DNA from: a virus
Virus record (IMG/VR): IMGVR_UViG_3300042566_000491
Location: 1 to 23,987 of that record
Length of the DNA stretch: 23,987 nt
Direction: 5' to 3' (one strand)
The notes under the pieces are model-generated. The model was not told where the DNA came from. It did not search any database and was given only the letters and a program-made list of their open reading frames with translations. This document shows positions 10,420 to 19,630 of the stretch, piece after piece; the stretch's first letter is position 1, and the number at the start of each line of letters is the position of its first letter. The translations under genes and the position numbers were made by a program.

Positions 10420-10699
10420 GGGGCTGAAATAGATTCGATTCTATTCGGAAATCACTCTGGCAGTCAAAATTAAATATAAACGGAAAATGTAAAAACTCCT
10501 ACGCTCTCGCTGCATAAACAAACCAGAAGAGCCGCCTTTTAGACAGGTGGGAACAGAAGTCTAGTGTTAGAAAAACAATTCTAGCAATTGCAGGTCGGAA
10601 ACCAAATTGCTAAAAAAAAATGAAATACAACGCTAGTGCATGACTGTAACTAGAGGAAATGGAAGATAGAAGACCAGGGTGCGATTCCCTGCAGCTCCA
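10420..10699 (+). ncRNA. ssrA: Transfer-messenger RNA (tmRNA, ssrA)
   Basis: It opens with GGGGCTGAAATAGATTCGAT and closes with a T arm (CAGGG-TGCGATT-CCCTG) and acceptor strand CAGCTCC, the tmRNA signature at both ends. The tag reading frame ends at TAA 10515-10517 and reads ...NGKCKNSYALAA. The last codons, TACGCTCTCGCTGC, are nearly those of mycobacterial tmRNA (tag ending DYALAA). In trans-translation, with SmpB, it rescues stalled ribosomes and tags the product for proteolysis. Oddities: one extra base between the AGTC before the resume site and the tag frame, a T-loop TGCGATT instead of TTCGATT, and no Ala at the start of the tag. The exact resume codon is uncertain. Confidence 0.9.
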
Positions 10700-10717
10700 C
10701 TTAGAGAATGGATAATT

Positions 10718-13456: not shown

Positions 13457-13662
13457 TTTGCCTCCCATGTATAAGGGTATTCACCTGTAGGTAATTCATC
13501 GAATGAGCACCCCGCGCTTAATGCATTTTGGTAATCATTGTTTGCTTGGAATTCTGCACATTGGTCTAGGGCATCTACTTTACCCGCGAGAAAGATTGTG
13601 CCTAACATAAATAAAATAAATGCAACGCTAACAACACGCTCACCGCGTTTAGTCAATTTCAC
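13453..13662 (-). CDS. Small single-pass membrane protein
   Basis: 69 aa from the GTG at 13662, with GGAG 8 nt upstream and a GTGA overlap with the preceding gene; the TTG at 13692 is rejected. Basic start MKLTKRGERVV, a membrane segment (VVSVAFILFMLGTIFLAGKV), then an outside domain with two cysteines (LDQCAEF, AGCSFDE). Similar small proteins beginning MKLTRRGERV occur in actinobacteria and their phages; role unknown. Confidence 0.75.
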   Translation of the reverse strand: MKLTKRGERVVSVAFILFMLGTIFLAGKVDALDQCAEFQANNDYQNALSAGCSFDELPTGEYPYTWEAK

Positions 13663-13823
13663 TCTGCTATCTCCATTCCTGATATAGCCCAACCTGTACT
13701 AGAGCAACCGTCTAGCGTGCCGTTAATGATTGACATTAGCATAGATTCGTTATAGCAAGTATATGTAAACTCATGCACTAAGCCTGAATTTATTTTGACT
13801 GTCTTTATCTTTACTGATTGCAT
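13659..13823 (-). CDS. Small hypothetical protein (54 aa)
   Basis: ATG at 13823 with ribosome site AAAGGAAACAAA. It reads MQSVKIKTVKINSGLVHEFT and ends STGWAISGMEIAE. The tiny gene overlaps the next start as GTGA. It is first in a three-gene unit driven by the ATGTCAG promoter at 13854-13876. No motif recognised. Confidence 0.7.
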   Translation of the reverse strand: MQSVKIKTVKINSGLVHEFTYTCYNESMLMSIINGTLDGCSSTGWAISGMEIAE

Positions 13824-13853: not shown

Positions 13854-13876
13854 ACCCTATCATCTAGGGCTGACAT
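13854..13876 (-). promoter_or_regulatory. ATGTCAG-class promoter
   Basis: ATGTCAG (13876-13870), then TAGGGT (13859-13854) exactly 17 nt from the motif start, preceded by TGA. No -35. Start of the unit 13823-13274. Confidence 0.7.
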
Positions 13877-13882
13877 TGGTGA

Positions 13883-13989
13883 GGATATTTCTAAAGGATA
13901 ACTAGAGGCTTTTCATTGCTTAGGACTTAGCACCTCGCAGGTAATCTAAGTGCAGTATATGCGCTTTCTAGTTATCTTTTAGCGATACC
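13883..13989 (-). ncRNA. Long imperfect hairpin RNA (about 107 nt)
   Basis: The two ends (13883-13905 and 13968-13989) pair over about 20 bp (CTAAAGGATAACTAG with CTAGTTATCTTTTAG, plus outer pairs). Inside, ATTGC/GCAGT, ACTTAG/CTAAGT and ACCT-CGC-AGGT extend the hairpin to its tip. It has its own ATGTCAG promoter (14010-14032) and no ORF, so it is probably a phage small RNA. A 6S-like polymerase decoy or antisense role is only a guess. Confidence 0.6.
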
Positions 13990-14009
13990 CTCTATTTAGT
14001 TATGGTGTA

Positions 14010-14032
14010 ACCCTATCATAGGGGACTGACAT
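14010..14032 (-). promoter_or_regulatory. ATGTCAG-class promoter for the hairpin RNA
   Basis: ATGTCAG (14032-14026), TAGGGT (14015-14010), with TGA before it. The stop codon of the 27-aa gene overlaps the motif (TAATGTCAG). Confidence 0.7.
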
Positions 14033-14115
14033 TAGCCTGCATGTGGGCACATGTCTGGCTCGTGTCGGTTGTAGCAACCTGAGCAGGTGGCCTCTGGGTA
14101 GTCTAGGTCTTTCAT
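14032..14115 (-). CDS. 27-residue Cys/His micro-protein
   Basis: ATG at 14115 with ribosome site GAGGAAAG, 27 codons, TAA at 14034-14032. It reads MKDLDYPEATCSGCYNRHEP followed by DMCPHAG. Cys11, Cys14, His18, Cys23 and His25 would make one minimal zinc knuckle. It has its own promoter at 14155-14177. Despite the length, promoter, ribosome site and motif agree, so it is probably real. Confidence 0.65.
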   Translation of the reverse strand: MKDLDYPEATCSGCYNRHEPDMCPHAG

Positions 14116-14154
14116 GTCTTTCCTCTTTCTTTAGTTTCTTTATCTTATGTCTGT

Positions 14155-14177
14155 AGACTATCATAGGGGACTGACAT
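14155..14177 (-). promoter_or_regulatory. ATGTCAG-class promoter
   Basis: ATGTCAG (14177-14171), TAGTCT (14160-14155), TGA before it. Drives the 27-aa gene with a leader of about 33 nt. Confidence 0.65.
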
Positions 14178-14269
14178 TTAGTACCCCGACACCCCCTATA
14201 TATCTATTTAATTTAATAAATTATTGTGTTATATATCACATGAAATAGACTTGACAAAGTTGGAAAAGC

Positions 14270-14318
14270 GGGGCGCTCCGCCCCTCTATGCTTGTTACGA
14301 AGAAGCTAAAAAACCCCC
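14270..14318 (+). repeat. Cassette-boundary repeat, copy 1
   Basis: GGGGCGC at 14270, TTACGAAG at 14295, CCCCC at 14314-14318. TTGACA lies 13 nt upstream of GGGG. It separates the leftward 14115 unit from the rightward 14384 gene. In this copy GGGGCG-CTC-CGCCCC can also form a tight hairpin. Confidence 0.85.
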
Positions 14319-14332
14319 AGAAAACTGATGCG

Positions 14333-14355
14333 ATGTCAGACCCCTCTGGTAGGTT
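14333..14355 (+). promoter_or_regulatory. ATGTCAG-class promoter
   Basis: ATGTCAG (14333-14339), TAGGTT (14350-14355), TGG before it. Drives the 14384 gene. Confidence 0.65.
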
Positions 14356-14383
14356 TGCCTTACATCAACGAAAGGAACACATC

Positions 14384-14566
14384 ATGAGTCCGACAGTCGC
14401 GCAGGCTTACGCCCTCTCTCACCTGGGATTTTCTGCTATCCAGGACGACAGCCCCGCCATTCAATGCTCATTCAGCCCCCTGGAAACCTTCAGTTCTCCT
14501 GACTGGGATTCTCTCGTCAGCCATGCTACAAATTATCAACTGTGCGATTGCCACCTCCATGGCTAG
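14384..14566 (+). CDS. Small hypothetical protein (60 aa)
   Basis: The start at 14384 follows ribosome site GAAAGGAA and the 14333 promoter; the frame upstream to 14288 lies in the repeat and is not expected to be translated. It reads MSPTVAQAYALSHLGFSAIQ and ends YQLCDCHLHG (Cys and His close together). Noticeably more GC-rich than its neighbours, which suggests a different origin. It is the only rightward gene among leftward ones and is flanked on both sides by the boundary repeat. Confidence 0.65.
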   Translation: MSPTVAQAYALSHLGFSAIQDDSPAIQCSFSPLETFSSPDWDSLVSHATNYQLCDCHLHG

Positions 14567-14583
14567 CCACTAACCCCGAAAGG

Positions 14584-14632
14584 GGGGCGCCCCGCCCTTA
14601 GCTGCTTGTTACGAAACCAATAAATAATCCCC
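14584..14632 (+). repeat. Cassette-boundary repeat, copy 2
   Basis: GGGGCGC at 14584, TTACGAAA at 14609 (last base differs), CCCC at 14629-14632. It lies between converging genes, so no promoter follows it on the plus strand. Confidence 0.82.
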
Positions 14633-14639
14633 AGGTTTT

Positions 14640-14789
14640 CTACTTATTTATTTTATACATGCACTCTAGTGCTTCACCTAAATACTTTTCTACTTCATTG
14701 TAATCCCCGTCAAATAAATTTATCATTGCCCGTTTAATATTATTAGATGCAATGAATTCGTAATCGGTTAATTCTTTGTTAGATCTCAT
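14640..14789 (-). CDS. Small helical hypothetical protein (49 aa)
   Basis: ATG at 14789 (MRSNKELTDYEFIASNNIKR), with AGAGGA 9 nt upstream. The longer frame to 14864 would only retranslate the upstream gene. It overlaps the upstream stop by 11 nt. Probably two helices; no motif. Last gene of the 15509-14640 unit. Confidence 0.65.
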   Translation of the reverse strand: MRSNKELTDYEFIASNNIKRAMINLFDGDYNEVEKYLGEALECMYKINK

Positions 14790-14898
14790 CTGGTAATTCC
14801 TCTCCACACTTTGAACAAAATACATTTTCATTTTCCCAATACGCGGGACGGTTGCAATGCTCAAAACTAATTTCTTTATCGTCTGTCAATACCCACAT
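14779..14898 (-). CDS. Mini zinc-ribbon protein (39 aa)
   Basis: ATG at 14898, one base beyond the upstream stop. MWVLTDDKEISFEHCNRPAY then ENVFCSKCGEELPDEI has H-C and C-x2-C, likely a small zinc site. Weak ribosome site, so probably coupled to the upstream gene. Confidence 0.6.
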   Translation of the reverse strand: MWVLTDDKEISFEHCNRPAYWENENVFCSKCGEELPDEI

Positions 14899-14899
14899 G

Positions 14900-15109
14900 C
14901 TATTGTTCAGCAAGATACACCGCCAAAGATTCTGTGAAGTCAAGCATAGAAGTTTTATTCTTTTCAAATGCAAATGAAAAACAATCTATGTTGTTTGGAC
15001 TATTCCAACCTTCATAGACATTTGCATAGTGTGAGCCCTTAGCCCATACCACGCCGATATCATTTGGCAAGTGTGCCACCATGTGGTATCGCTTTGAATA
15101 GATCTTCAT
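14900..15109 (-). CDS. Hypothetical protein (69 aa)
   Basis: MKIYSKRYHMVAHLPNDIGV, with VWAKGSHYANVYEGW and a C-terminal helix ending AVYLAEQ. Start by TAATG overlap with the upstream gene, with GGGAGCG 8-10 nt upstream. Soluble; no motif recognised. Confidence 0.7.
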   Translation of the reverse strand: MKIYSKRYHMVAHLPNDIGVVWAKGSHYANVYEGWNSPNNIDCFSFAFEKNKTSMLDFTESLAVYLAEQ

Positions 15110-15234
15110 TAGTTGTCGCTCCCATCTAGGATTTCATAGTCTTCATGATTAGTCTTTGAATAAACAAACTGTGATGCAAGATCGCGGGTAGTGAATGACT
15201 TAACAAACTTATTGAGATAATATACACGATACAT
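15109..15234 (-). CDS. Small hypothetical protein (41 aa)
   Basis: MYRVYYLNKFVKSFTTRDLA, ending EDYEILDGSDN. ATG at 15234 with ribosome site GAAGGA in the end of the upstream gene; the stop overlaps the next ATG. The layout (short strand, then T-x-x-L-A helix) resembles small 'fetch-like' phage proteins, but no family is claimed. Confidence 0.65.
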   Translation of the reverse strand: MYRVYYLNKFVKSFTTRDLASQFVYSKTNHEDYEILDGSDN

Positions 15235-15357
15235 TTATCCTTCACCCTCTTTCAATTCGTCTGGCTCTACATACTCGCCAAGTCTTTCACAATATGCTAG
15301 GCGGGGATTCCATTCACCCGCAGAGTTATACCTTTCGCCATACTCCCAGTCAGTCAT
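15235..15357 (-). CDS. Small acidic hypothetical protein (40 aa)
   Basis: MTDWEYGERYNSAGEWNPRL, ending EPDELKEGEG. TAATG overlap with the upstream stop and direct abutment to the next gene. Tryptophan- and glutamate-rich; function unknown. Confidence 0.65.
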   Translation of the reverse strand: MTDWEYGERYNSAGEWNPRLAYCERLGEYVEPDELKEGEG

Positions 15358-15509
15358 TAGAATGGCACCTCTACAAATTGAGATTTACCTATCCAGACAG
15401 AACCGTCATTAGAATGAAACACCCTAGAACTATCAAAGGCGTTATCCTCAAGCATGAAATAAATATCTAGCCATGCATGTTCAAAGTCTAAAGACATTTT
15501 ATTATTCAT
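15357..15509 (-). CDS. Small hypothetical protein (50 aa), leaderless
   Basis: The TAAGGT box ends 7 nt before the ATG at 15509 (MNNKMSLDFEHAWLDIYFML), and there is no Shine-Dalgarno, so transcription probably starts at the start codon. The frame open to 15590 is upstream of the promoter and excluded. First gene of a five-gene overlapping unit. No motif. Confidence 0.65.
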   Translation of the reverse strand: MNNKMSLDFEHAWLDIYFMLEDNAFDSSRVFHSNDGSVWIGKSQFVEVPF

Positions 15510-15516
15510 AGAGATC

Positions 15517-15539
15517 ACCTTACCATTGGGGACTGACAT
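15517..15539 (-). promoter_or_regulatory. ATGTCAG-class promoter, leaderless
   Basis: ATGTCAG (15539-15533), TAAGGT (15522-15517), TGG before it. TTGCTA precedes the motif and may act as a weak -35. The upstream gene's TAA overlaps the motif. Confidence 0.7.
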
Positions 15540-15751
15540 TAGCAAGCCACCTTCCATGCGTTCCAAACACCAATTTCGCAATATACGCAACGGCTAACGC
15601 CGTCCACATTCCCGATGTGATGCGAGTCTGCATTGGCTTGCTTGACACTCTGGGGCAAGGCTCGCAGGCGAGAGACCTCAAGGGCTTGGACCTCGGCATA
15701 GGTGCCGACATACCTAGCGGTGTGCTTTGGGAGATTCTGAAGATTAAACAT
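15539..15751 (-). CDS. Hypothetical protein (70 aa)
   Basis: MFNLQNLPKHTARYVGTYAE, a helical middle, then ADSHHIGNVDGVSRCVYCEI with His-His and C-x2-C, a possible zinc site. Ribosome site GAAAGG. Its own promoter is at 15778-15800. A single-gene cassette. Confidence 0.7.
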   Translation of the reverse strand: MFNLQNLPKHTARYVGTYAEVQALEVSRLRALPQSVKQANADSHHIGNVDGVSRCVYCEIGVWNAWKVAC

Positions 15752-15777
15752 TTTGATCCTTTCGATTGAATAATGAA

Positions 15778-15800
15778 AGACTATCAGAGGGGTCTGACAT
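15778..15800 (-). promoter_or_regulatory. ATGTCAG-class promoter
   Basis: ATGTCAG (15800-15794), TAGTCT (15783-15778), TGA before it. The preceding gene's TAG stop ends one base before the motif. Confidence 0.68.
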
Positions 15801-15801
15801 T

Positions 15802-15948
15802 CTAGACAGAGGCTAGGTGCTTGCCAGATTGTCCAAGGGTTTCTACATCGACAACACGCCCAAAGAATGTGGGGTGGTCGGTTGGGTCGCCTGCGGATTC
15901 AATACGCACGACATGACCATTGGTAAGGGTGATGAGATAAATAAACAT
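15802..15948 (-). CDS. Small hypothetical protein (48 aa)
   Basis: MFIYLITLTNGHVVRIESAG, ending GQSGKHLASV. The ATG at 15948 has ribosome site GAAAGGCT; the longer frame to 16002 starts upstream of the promoter. Beta-rich, like a small SH3-type or DNA-binding barrel, but this is not certain. Confidence 0.68.
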   Translation of the reverse strand: MFIYLITLTNGHVVRIESAGDPTDHPTFFGRVVDVETLGQSGKHLASV

Positions 15949-15973
15949 TTTAGCCTTTCGATCGATTTCTTTG

Positions 15974-16002
15974 ATCTTATCATGGGGGTCTGACATTGAC
16001 AA
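15974..16002 (-). promoter_or_regulatory. ATGTCAG-class promoter with a -35
   Basis: TTGTCA (16002-15997) directly before ATGTCAG (15996-15990), TGA, then TAAGAT (15979-15974); -35 to -10 spacing is 17. Confidence 0.7.
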
Positions 16003-16014
16003 AATGAAAAGGGC

Positions 16015-16063
16015 GGGGCGCTCTGCTTTGCAGCTCTTGTTACGAAGACTCTAAAAAATCCCC
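16015..16063 (+). repeat. Cassette-boundary repeat, copy 3
   Basis: GGGGCGC at 16015, TTACGAAG at 16040, CCCC at 16060-16063; TTGACA 13 nt upstream as in copy 1. The neighbours on both sides (15948 gene and tRNA-Asp) are leftward, so the repeat points against local transcription. Confidence 0.85.
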
Positions 16064-16072
16064 AGCTTTTTG

Positions 16073-16145
16073 CGATTCTGATGGGATTTGAACCCACGAC
16101 CTCCACCGTGACAGGGTGGCGAGCACTCCGCTGCTCTACAGAACC
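16073..16145 (-). tRNA. tRNA-Asp (GTC)
   Basis: Acceptor GGTTCTG/CAGAATC (one G-U), D arm GAGC...GCTC, anticodon stem CCACC/GGTGG with loop CTGTCAC, T arm GTGGG-TTCAAAT-CCCAT. CCA not encoded. Confidence 0.9.
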
Positions 16146-16204
16146 ATTGCATTATTTTTATGTATCGCAAGAGCACATAGTTATCTCTACTCCTTTCTCT
16201 TGCT

Positions 16205-16283
16205 CGCACCTCGTCTAGGAATTGAACCTAGCAAGACAAGTTTTGGAGGCTCGTCCGTACCCAGTACCCAAGGCTAGGGTGAA
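16205..16283 (-). ncRNA. tRNA-Trp-like sequence, possibly degenerate
   Basis: A good T arm (CTAGG-TTCAATT-CCTAG, 16215-16231), a 5-nt variable region and an anticodon loop CTCCAAA (anticodon CCA, 16244-16246) sit at tRNA spacing. The anticodon stem has one mismatch, the D arm pairs poorly and the 5' side does not match the 3' acceptor strand ACGAGGT beyond four bases. It is either a decayed tRNA-Trp or a tRNA-like domain of a larger RNA. Confidence 0.45.
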
Positions 16284-16314
16284 AAGGTATCTAGGCTTTA
16301 TCCTTTTCTTTTTA

Positions 16315-16430
16315 CTTGTAGCGAGACAAAACATTTTTTGTCATATCTCTATGATGTTAGTACACTAGACTACAAGTGGGGAAGCGAGTCATTTTTCACC
16401 AGGCTCAACCTAGCGGGTCGCATATCCCCA
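16315..16430 (-). ncRNA. Two adjacent structured RNA domains
   Basis: Domain A (16315-16376) is closed by CTTGTAG/CTACAAG and holds three small hairpins: TAGT-GT-ACTA, TCATA-GAGA-TATGA (a GNRA loop) and GACAAAA-AATG-TTTTGTC (the last two share two bases). Domain B (16377-16430) is a nested hairpin TGGGGA/TCCCCA, GCGA/TCGC and a 7-bp tip CGCTAGG-TTGAG-CCTGGTG with G-U pairs. No ORF fits. They lie in a 319-nt gap between the 16465 gene and tRNA-Asp. Confidence 0.5.
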
Positions 16431-16464
16431 AGCCACTATTTAATTATTTAGACATTGTATCAAA

Positions 16465-16611
16465 TTACTTGACAGTTGTCCAACGGTCTGCACCATTTAC
16501 ATCAAGCAAAAGAACTGTACGGCCAAAAGGCTTTTCATGAATTTCTTGAATGATTCCAGTTACGCCTGAAATGCTAGTGGTGAATTCTGAACCTACTGTG
16601 ATTGTAGACAT
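16465..16611 (-). CDS. Small beta-rich actinophage protein (48 aa)
   Basis: Start ATG at 16611 (MSTITVGSEFTTSISGVTGI) with AGGAGAAAA; the frame to 16650 is upstream of the promoter -10. Pattern 'G..FtTs.SGVTG.iqEi......vll.dv.g..RWTTvk' recurs in small actinophage proteins and looks like an SH3-type barrel. Function unknown. Confidence 0.75.
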   Translation of the reverse strand: MSTITVGSEFTTSISGVTGIIQEIHEKPFGRTVLLLDVNGADRWTTVK

Positions 16612-16640
16612 TTTTCTCCTTGTTTGTTTGTTGAAAGAAA

Positions 16641-16669
16641 AGCGTATCATGGTGGGGGCAGAATGTCAA
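16641..16669 (-). promoter_or_regulatory. Vegetative-type promoter
   Basis: TTGACA (16669-16664), 17-nt spacer ending TGA, TACGCT (16646-16641). Drives the 16611 gene and probably the RNAs beyond it. Confidence 0.8.
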
Positions 16670-16697
16670 TACCCTGCCCCCCACCGTTATTGAATTG

Positions 16698-17201
16698 TTA
16701 CCAACTTGCGTGGTAACTGAATGACCAACCATATTCATCTTCTGGAATGATAGTTAGAATATTCTCTATCATCTCTATTGTGTATTTGAGATCTTGGTCG
16801 TAGTATTCATCTAACTCATATCCCCCGAAGAAAAATCCTTCCATAGGCATTAGACCAAACTCATCTGCTACATCTTGCTTAGATACCCCTGCACTTACAG
16901 ACAGGACAGCCTTGCAAGCAGCAAGCAAATCTACCAACGCAACTCGGGGTACATAAATTTCTTGACATTCATCTACACCACCTGCAAGGGTATTGACAAA
17001 CCAACCATGAATAGCGTTGGCCTTGCGCCAATATCCAACGGTAAGAGCAACGCTTGCCCCACCAAAATCAACCTTATCAACAAGACCCTTGGGAGCCAAT
17101 GCCAGCAACGCGGCATAGTCTGGGTTTGGAGTGCGTTCTCTATTACTGTAATTATCTTTACCAACATACTTTTTAGCCTCAAGGTACATATCTAAACCCA
17201 T
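16698..17201 (-). CDS. Conserved phage protein of the MGLDMYL family
   Basis: 167 aa. MGLDMYLEAKKYVGK, VGYWRKANAIHGWFVNTLAG, EIYVPRVALVDLLAACKAVL, FFFGGYELDEYYDQDLKYTI and the SFSYHASW end match a widespread phage and bacterial family of unknown function. The YWRKANAIH motif is its best-conserved part. Ribosome site GAAGGTGG; own promoter at 17235-17263. No membrane segment. Confidence 0.82.
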   Translation of the reverse strand: MGLDMYLEAKKYVGKDNYSNRERTPNPDYAALLALAPKGLVDKVDFGGASVALTVGYWRKANAIHGWFVNTLAGGVDECQEIYVPRVALVDLLAACKAVLSVSAGVSKQDVADEFGLMPMEGFFFGGYELDEYYDQDLKYTIEMIENILTIIPEDEYGWSFSYHASW

Positions 17202-17234
17202 TTGAAACCACCTTCTCTCGTTGTTGTTAAAGAA

Positions 17235-17263
17235 AATCTATCACAAATTAAATGCATAGTCAA
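17235..17263 (-). promoter_or_regulatory. Vegetative-type promoter
   Basis: TTGACT (17263-17258), 17-nt spacer ending TGA, TAGATT (17240-17235). Upstream of the 17201 gene. Confidence 0.78.
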
Positions 17264-17296
17264 ATCTATTGGGTAACAATTTGATAACAAAAAGGC

Positions 17297-17345
17297 GGGG
17301 CGCTCTCTGTGGATAACTTTGTTACGAAGATGTTATAAAATCCCC
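17297..17345 (+). repeat. Cassette-boundary repeat, copy 4
   Basis: GGGGCGC at 17297, TTACGAAG at 17322, CCCC at 17342-17345. It sits between divergent units. A perfect DnaA-box sequence (TTATCCACA on the minus strand, 17308-17316) falls in its variable part. Confidence 0.85.
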
Positions 17346-17361
17346 TGAAATTTGCTTATAA

Positions 17362-17384
17362 ATGTCAGGCCCTTATGCTAGGAT
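17362..17384 (+). promoter_or_regulatory. ATGTCAG-class promoter, leaderless
   Basis: ATGTCAG (17362-17368), TGC, TAGGAT (17379-17384), then 6 nt to the ATG at 17391. Confidence 0.7.
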
Positions 17385-18369: not shown

Positions 18370-18371
18370 GG

Positions 18372-18419
18372 GGGGCGCCCCGCTTTTTCTGCCTTTTACG
18401 AAGAGCTTTAAAAACCCCC
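18372..18419 (+). repeat. Cassette-boundary repeat, copy 5
   Basis: GGGGCGC at 18372, TTACGAAG at 18396, CCCCC at 18415-18419. It lies between a stop codon and the next promoter. Confidence 0.85.
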
Positions 18420-18449
18420 AGAAATTCCTGAAAATATATCTGAAAACTC

Positions 18450-18516: not shown

Positions 18517-19503
18517 ATGGTTGCAGCAGTTGAGGTCGGTCAAAATGGCGAAGCAGCATTCGCGTCTTTGCGCGAACCCGCTTGGCATAATCTTGGCACA
18601 GTATTTAATGATGAGGTCACTACGCGGGAAATGCTTGATCTTGCATACCTCTCTAATTGGAATGTTCGCCTAGAGAGTGTCACACTTCCAGGCCGTTCAC
18701 ACCGCGAATACTTTGCGGTTACTCGTAGCAATCCTTTTGACGGTCATGCTGATGTGCTTGGCATGGTAGGTGAGCGTTACAAGGTTGTACAGAATGAGCA
18801 ACTATTTAATTTTGCTGACAACATTCTAGATGGTGCTCGCTGGGAAACTGCTGGCTCAATCAAAAACGGTACTGTTGTCTTTGGCTCGCTTGCTCTTGAT
18901 CGTGAGTCTGTCATTGACCCTAATGGTGTAGGTGATAAGGTGAATTCATATCTCTTAGTTCACACATCACATGATGGATCGCTTGCTGTGCAGGCTAGTG
19001 TTACCCCTGTCCGTGTTGTTTGCCAAAATACTTTGAACATGGCTTTGCAAGGTGTAAAGCAATCCTACAAGATTCGACACACACAGACTGTTGATGGTCG
19101 CGTTGCTGTTGCGCGTGAGGCTCTTGGTCTTGCTCATAAGTTCATGGACGAATTCGACAAGCAGGCAGCAGAACTGTATGCACGGGAAGTTAGTGCTGAC
19201 AAGTTTTTTGATATCGTGTCTGCTATTTATCCTAAGCCTGAGAAAGATGCAAAGGGTAGCATGACAAAGTGGGAAAATAAAATTGACACGATCAACTCAA
19301 TTTATACTGGCCCAACCAATAACATGATCGCTGGTACTGCGTGGGGTGCTCTCAATGCAATTACTGAGCGACTGGACTGGTATCGTACTGCTCGCAAGGG
19401 CAGCACAGAGTCAATGTCTGCTGCTGCATCAGGTTTTGATGTTGCAACAAATAGTGAAAAGGCTCGTATTCTATCTGCGGTCAGGGAACTGACGGCAGCA
19501 TAA
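18517..19503 (+). CDS. DUF932 / TIGR03299 phage-plasmid-like protein
   Basis: 328 aa. PAWHNLGTVFNDEVTTREML, GMVGERYKVVQNEQLFNFAD, TPVRVVCQNTLNMALQG and RHTQTVDGRVAVAREALGLA are the signature blocks of the TIGR03299 subfamily of DUF932, frequent in actinophages and plasmids. The function is unproven; links to DNA repair or replication are sometimes suggested for DUF932. Ribosome site AAGGAGACAAA. It is the largest gene of the right arm and a stand-alone unit with its own promoter, a 3' hairpin and a boundary repeat. Confidence 0.88.
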   Translation: MVAAVEVGQNGEAAFASLREPAWHNLGTVFNDEVTTREMLDLAYLSNWNVRLESVTLPGRSHREYFAVTRSNPFDGHADVLGMVGERYKVVQNEQLFNFADNILDGARWETAGSIKNGTVVFGSLALDRESVIDPNGVGDKVNSYLLVHTSHDGSLAVQASVTPVRVVCQNTLNMALQGVKQSYKIRHTQTVDGRVAVAREALGLAHKFMDEFDKQAAELYAREVSADKFFDIVSAIYPKPEKDAKGSMTKWENKIDTINSIYTGPTNNMIAGTAWGALNAITERLDWYRTARKGSTESMSAAASGFDVATNSEKARILSAVRELTAA

Positions 19504-19515
19504 CCCTAGACGGCG

Positions 19516-19546
19516 GTGCCCCTCGTAGTAATCCTGCGGGGGGCAC
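19516..19546 (+). terminator. Strong hairpin after the DUF932 gene
   Basis: A 10-bp stem GTGCCCCTCG / CGGGGGGCAC (one U-G) with an 11-nt loop, 12 nt after the stop. No T tract follows; actinobacterial terminators often lack one. Likely end of the unit. Confidence 0.6.
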
Positions 19547-19563
19547 TGCTATGTCAGAGAGCT

Positions 19564-19611
19564 GGGGCGCCCCGCAAATATCTTCTTTTACGAAGCAAGT
19601 AAAAAATCCCC
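19564..19611 (+). repeat. Cassette-boundary repeat, copy 6
   Basis: GGGGCGC at 19564, TTACGAAG at 19588, CCCC at 19608-19611. An ATGTCAG without a -10 box sits just upstream (19551-19557). Confidence 0.85.
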
Positions 19612-19630
19612 ACAAATTTGCAAAACATTC

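Follow-up and report, generated by a model that had tools for sequence, protein, structure and literature searches.

Within a minus-strand array of tiny genes, each placed behind a promoter of the form AATGTCAGnCCCnnnTGnTAnnnT, the virus record IMGVR_UViG_3300042566_000491 holds one position that raises a question: what stands behind a promoter where the DNA encodes no protein and folds into a long hairpin? The window analysed here is this complete IMG/VR record (23,987 bases), and the element in question is a rod-shaped hairpin at positions 13881-13992 on the minus strand. The analyses described below support a noncoding, promoter-linked hairpin whose fold is conserved, and from them we infer its transcription, strand and function. 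The element is quite probably a self-contained RNA cassette, consisting of a promoter and a structured RNA but no protein, in an accessory early-gene array. As the best explanation overall we lean, with modest confidence, toward this RNA cassette acting in trans via a protein bound at its internal loop.

A hairpin RNA of 107 nt had been proposed at 13883-13989 in a sequence-only reading of the window. The inverted repeat is indeed present, with slightly wider limits: in a minus-strand RNA, the 5′ arm (13967-13992) and the 3′ arm (13881-13906) of the outer stem are 85% complementary across 26 nt, and the element measures 112 nt. It comprises an outer stem of about 21-25 pairs, a conserved asymmetric internal loop and an upper helix. 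Folding of 13880-13992 gave energies of -40.5 kcal/mol (minus strand, z = -6.11) and -42.6 kcal/mol (plus strand, z = -5.56), and none of 200 shuffles was as good in either case. Shuffled controls had been suggested for the shorter 107-nt interval, which gave z-scores of -4.84 (plus) and -4.17 (minus), and the inner helices named for it were found in the plus-strand minimum-energy fold. When raw energy was scanned across the contig (1990 segments of 113 nt on a 12-nt grid), the hairpin ranked 25th on the minus strand and 11th on the plus strand; the segments ranked above it include tRNA genes and GC-rich hairpins at 19.5 kb. Moreover, all open reading frames (ORFs) within the hairpin were of 10 codons or fewer on either strand, which agrees with the earlier statement that no ORF is present, and the interval had the lowest folding energy per base among the ORF-less inter-promoter intervals of the window and its relatives (ORF cut-off, 20 codons).

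Conservation of the fold was assessed in relatives. The hairpin has one independent homologue, in locus L003 (80% identity), and L007 is identical to L003 over the 12.2 kb compared. In a consensus structure built from the same two sequences (window and L003), 37 of 37 pairs were kept, 4 of them by changes on both sides. When the minus-strand structure was instead predicted from the window only, 4 of its 39 pairs were broken in L003, compared with 11.7 expected, and none of 2000 simulations gave as few; 4 two-sided changes that kept pairing were found for this structure (P = 0.0035). The window-only plus-strand structure was kept less well, with 7 of 45 pairs broken. A lack of compensatory changes in relatives had been named beforehand as grounds for refutation; such changes were found, in one independent relative only. 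The internal loop itself was invariant. Its 5′ strand region, AAGCGCATATACTGCA (13951-13966, minus strand), is the same in L003 while the flanking helices change, and within its 3′ strand region, TCCTAAGCAATGAAA (13911-13925, minus strand), TCCTA and GCAATGAA are the same in L003. The loop strands AAGCGCAUAUACUGCA and UCCUAnGCAAUGAA are unchanged between window and L003, and in short form the loop is GCGCAUAUACUGCA / CCUAnGCAAUGAA. Searches by DNA similarity of the hairpin in INPHARED and in plasmids gave nothing beyond chance-level matches, and relatives sought through the neighbouring 54-amino-acid (aa) protein yielded none. The exact rod core pattern occurred in two contigs only in IMG/VR; a relaxed core pattern returned 46 further stretches, none of which matched the covariance model of the rod, and the rod core had no match in the genome collection.

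The promoter that reads into the hairpin, P1 (14010-14033, minus strand), consists of AATGTCAG, N10 and TAGGGT, and was identified from its motif, from the architecture in relatives and from the consensus in the literature; transcription would be expected to start near 14003 on the minus strand. An ATGTCAG promoter had already been proposed to read directly into the hairpin. This holds on the minus strand only, where the motif lies at 14032-14026, while the copy at 13876-13870 is directed away. Given that the reading-in promoter is P1, the transcript is expected on the minus strand. Along this strand the order is a promoter (14155-14178), a gene for a 27-aa cysteine-containing protein (14032-14115, its TAA stop overlapping P1), P1, the leader, the hairpin, 4 nt, a second promoter P2 (13854-13877, located by motif search) that drives the next gene, and that gene, a 54-aa ORF (MQSVKIK..., 13659-13823) with homologues in L004 and L201. 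The neighbouring cassettes each consist of one promoter of the RecA-independent DNA-damage type (RecA-NDp type) and one tiny gene, and the hairpin fills such a slot. Tiny cysteine-rich cassette proteins include the 27-aa product and one of 49 aa (L201:245-394), with stops that touch or overlap the next promoter.

The full promoter motif occurs at 8 sites in the window, compared with 0.2 expected. Among 971 distinct WTGTCRG sites in relatives, 667 have TAnnnT exactly 10 nt downstream; an extended -10 TG is usually present as well. P1 and P2 both follow the RecA-NDp (PafBC) pattern TGTCRG-N10-TAnnnT. The RecA-independent DNA-damage promoter of mycobacteria is tTGTCRgtg-N8-TAnnnT (PMC5656591), with the same spacing as the phage promoters, and PafBC activates such promoters via sigma adaptation at the -26 element (PMC10936776; PMC10609372). 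The agreement with RecA-NDp/PafBC promoters is exact; the difference is that the promoters here drive a phage gene array. Judging from their sequence, the phage promoters may depend on PafBC. No phage-encoded WYL-domain/PafBC protein was found in 14 related records. Hundreds of phage TGTCRG-N10-TAnnnT promoters with an extended -10 were observed across window positions 13854-17381 and loci L003-L138. Another motif, GGGGCGC...TTGTTACGAAG...AAAAAnCCCC(A)G, is repeated in intergenic gaps of the window (14265-14320, 14579-14634, 16010-16065, 17292-17347 and approximately 18370-18421); most copies lie just upstream of an ATGTCAG promoter and resemble a stem-loop plus promoter cassette.

The contents of the slot differ among relatives. 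In the close relative L201, found through alignment of the neighbouring 67-aa protein, the site is empty: a single promoter replaces P1, the hairpin and P2, and the P2 leader TAGGGTTACACCATACCAACTA is unchanged. The promoter of the 27-aa gene in the window has an L003 equivalent (TAGTCTACAGACATAA) that runs straight into the hairpin instead; the cassettes therefore appear to be exchanged at their promoters. Presence or absence of cassettes and their reordering at the repeated promoter motif were seen when window, L003 and L201 were compared.

A second RNA was found in the same slot. In L004 (6205-6273) and L005 (3012-3083), two copies of UGAGCCUAGCAAAUAA surround a small hairpin and lie behind the same promoter type, here RecA-NDp, and the same AAATAGAGRGTA leader as in the window, upstream of MQS or MKTRKTP genes. 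The neighbours match pairwise: the window and L004 share the MQS gene, L003 and L005 the MKTRKTP gene. This tandem RNA was also seen in L019-L138, and the stretches of viral contigs that contain it number at least 120. Exact repeat matches were obtained in 21 of the 31 records searched, 20 of them with two copies (that is, one element) and 1 with a single copy; L078 contains two elements. Neither Rfam, INPHARED nor the genome collection gave a match to the tandem RNA. Covariation is seen in both its outer and its inner stem, whereas the loop strands, UGAGC and CAAAUAA, hardly vary. Given that an extra UGAGC ... CAAAUAA pair flanks the core in some members, the unit seems to consist of a UGAGC/CAAAUAA internal loop with either CUAG/CUAG or CUC/GAG as its closing pairs. 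The genes downstream are diverse (about 40 clusters), and many copies lie in mRNA leaders, often directly ahead of a small ORF. Single UGAGC ... CAAAUAA modules in GC-rich hairpins (e.g. GGGGAUAGGGUGAGCCUAGAAAUAGCAAAUAAACCUAUCCCC) were observed in more distant relatives (L190:842, L191:1516 and L193:1516), apparently just after genes.

Like the rod, the tandem RNA usually occurs once per record and often follows this type of promoter, and in L004 and L005 it stands in the rod's slot behind the same leader; in both, conserved loop strands lie between covarying stems. It differs from the rod in its short stems and repeated UGAGC/CAAAUAA internal loop, and the two have no sequence or covariance-model match to each other. 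The tandem-RNA model R2, built from 44 members, found nothing in the records of the window, L003 and L007, and the rod model R1 found nothing in 28 other records.

These observations are consistent with an RNA that is made and used as follows. Host RNA polymerase would transcribe the minus strand early, from P1; the rod would serve as a scaffold presenting the invariant internal-loop strands; and a protein of the host or the phage would be bound by these strands in trans, for host takeover or counter-defence. The target of the rod would likely be common to the tandem RNA. The minus strand was chosen because of the promoters and the better-kept minus-strand pairs, folding energy being indecisive. 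Action in trans was preferred because the element is generally single-copy, because the downstream gene is not constant, and because a new promoter follows at once; taken by itself, this trans-acting, protein-binding step is tentative and falls short of an even chance. Several points weigh against the proposed RNA cassette. The independent rod sequences number just two. Folding energy leaves the strand undecided, with the plus strand equal or better (-42.6 versus -40.5 in the window, -50.3 versus -37.3 kcal/mol in L003). No terminator-like site or U-tract was found after the hairpin, so that the hairpin RNA may be a mere leader of a longer mRNA. The mutual exclusion of the two RNAs, which were found together in no record searched, speaks for the cassette but is provisional since the records are fragments. 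Finally, trans action of the rod is a guess, and its binding partner is hypothetical.

A wider proposal, which we hold to be somewhat doubtful, is that the rod and the UGAGC/CAAAUAA RNA answer one and the same need of the phage in interchangeable ways. Both would then belong to an undescribed class of phage RNAs that are early, trans-acting and present in single copy and that engage the same host target; many actinophage-like viruses would carry such RNAs behind promoters modelled on the DNA-damage (PafBC) promoters of the host. Phage accessory protein genes have been widely catalogued, and RNA genes in the same slots have mostly been missed; the comparison of relatives shows one slot holding one RNA, another RNA, or nothing. 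That the slot is tied to a repeated RecA-NDp/PafBC-type promoter suggests that the phages draw on the host DNA-damage activator. The tandem RNA, with its 120 or more contig stretches and no entry in Rfam, offers a function testable in a laboratory actinobacterium.

The main rival, in our view unlikely, is a cis-acting leader: the hairpin would modify RNA polymerase, as the put RNA of HK022 does, or would protect and process the downstream polycistronic mRNA, for instance as an RNase III site like those in T7 early mRNA. It ranks first among the rivals because no terminator follows the hairpin and because many tandem-RNA copies lie in mRNA leaders, and the position of many of those copies directly ahead of a small ORF counts in the same direction. 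The outer stem is long, as would befit an RNase III substrate, and the hairpin starts about 10-15 nt after the expected transcription start. However, P2 restarts transcription 4 nt on and the neighbours have promoters of their own, leaving little for antitermination to do; moreover, there is approximately one element per genome despite the many leaders available. HK022 putL lies just downstream of an early promoter (PMC9378689); the hairpin stands directly behind P1 and would share this arrangement of a structured RNA if P1, as presumed, is early. Put RNA, about 70 nt long, folds into a pair of stem-loops and works on the very polymerase that transcribed it (PMC9378689), whereas the hairpin is a single rod of 112 nt with a new promoter immediately after it. 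Antitermination by put goes through the beta′ zinc-binding domain.

A palindrome acting at the level of DNA, as a cruciform or as a replication or recombination site with RNA folding incidental, is improbable. It would account for the nearly equal folding of the two strands, compensatory changes would be retained there too, and the promoter repeats that flank the hairpin, together with the shuffling of cassettes, would suit it. On the other hand, fewer pairs are broken in the minus-strand structure than in the plus-strand one (4 versus 7), a promoter is directed into the hairpin, and the alternative occupant of the slot is RNA-like, with short stems and long conserved single-stranded loops.

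We consider it very improbable that the hairpin is a boundary element that combines a terminator with an early promoter, insulates cassettes and promotes their shuffling without an RNA product. T4-type phages are described, in work cited in PMC4503421, as shuffling genes via promoter-stem-loop (PeSL) cassettes, which have in common with the present locus an early promoter and a stem-loop among small shuffling ORFs; here, P2 comes directly after the hairpin, and repeated promoters flank variable cassettes. In contrast to T4-type PeSLs, however, the hairpin occurs once, is not terminator-like (it has no U-tract) and stands in place of a gene. Adjacent promoters of the array are without such a hairpin, and the invariant internal loop would be left unexplained.

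The weakest rival, a 6S-like decoy whose rod with internal bubble would mimic an open promoter for RNA polymerase, is highly improbable: the rod with an asymmetric internal loop is shared with 6S RNA, GCAUAUACUGC is invariant in both sequences and an invariant loop strand includes UAUACU, like a -10 element, but the hairpin is shorter than 6S and of other proportions. 6S RNA binds the RNA polymerase holoenzyme and templates pRNA, a role that is hypothetical for the hairpin. The likeness to 6S RNA raised in the sequence-only reading gained no support as family membership, no 6S (RF00013) match having been obtained in Rfam scans at gathering thresholds or at E ≤ 10; no Rfam family was assigned to the hairpin at gathering or permissive thresholds, and when the element was scanned by itself, with E values of up to 10 admitted, there were only two chance-level eukaryotic matches, neither of them 6S. 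Two other identities were rejected, a CRISPR-repeat mimic because a 112-nt rod is too long, and a retron because no reverse transcriptase was present among the proteins scanned.

The virus of the window is related to Streptomyces phages. It encodes tRNAs, a transfer-messenger RNA (tmRNA), ThyX and an endolysin. It also encodes a DUF932 protein with its nearest annotated relatives (58% identity) in BE-type Streptomyces phages (Stanwilliamsviridae). One such phage, BoomerJR, has related DUF932 and ThyX genes; 14.6 kb of it, when checked, contained a single isolated match to the TGTCRG-N10-TAnnnT promoter pattern and no tandem UGAGCCUAGCAAAUAA repeat. The tmRNA gene (window 10420-10702) was matched in Rfam with 61.6 bits and was absent from the ARAGORN output. 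Very stable hairpins lie right after the DUF932 gene (window 19504-19620), among them GGGGCGCCCC and one copy of the motif TTTTACGAAG; in this region, the 113-nt segment at 19465 folds to -58.9 kcal/mol on the plus strand.
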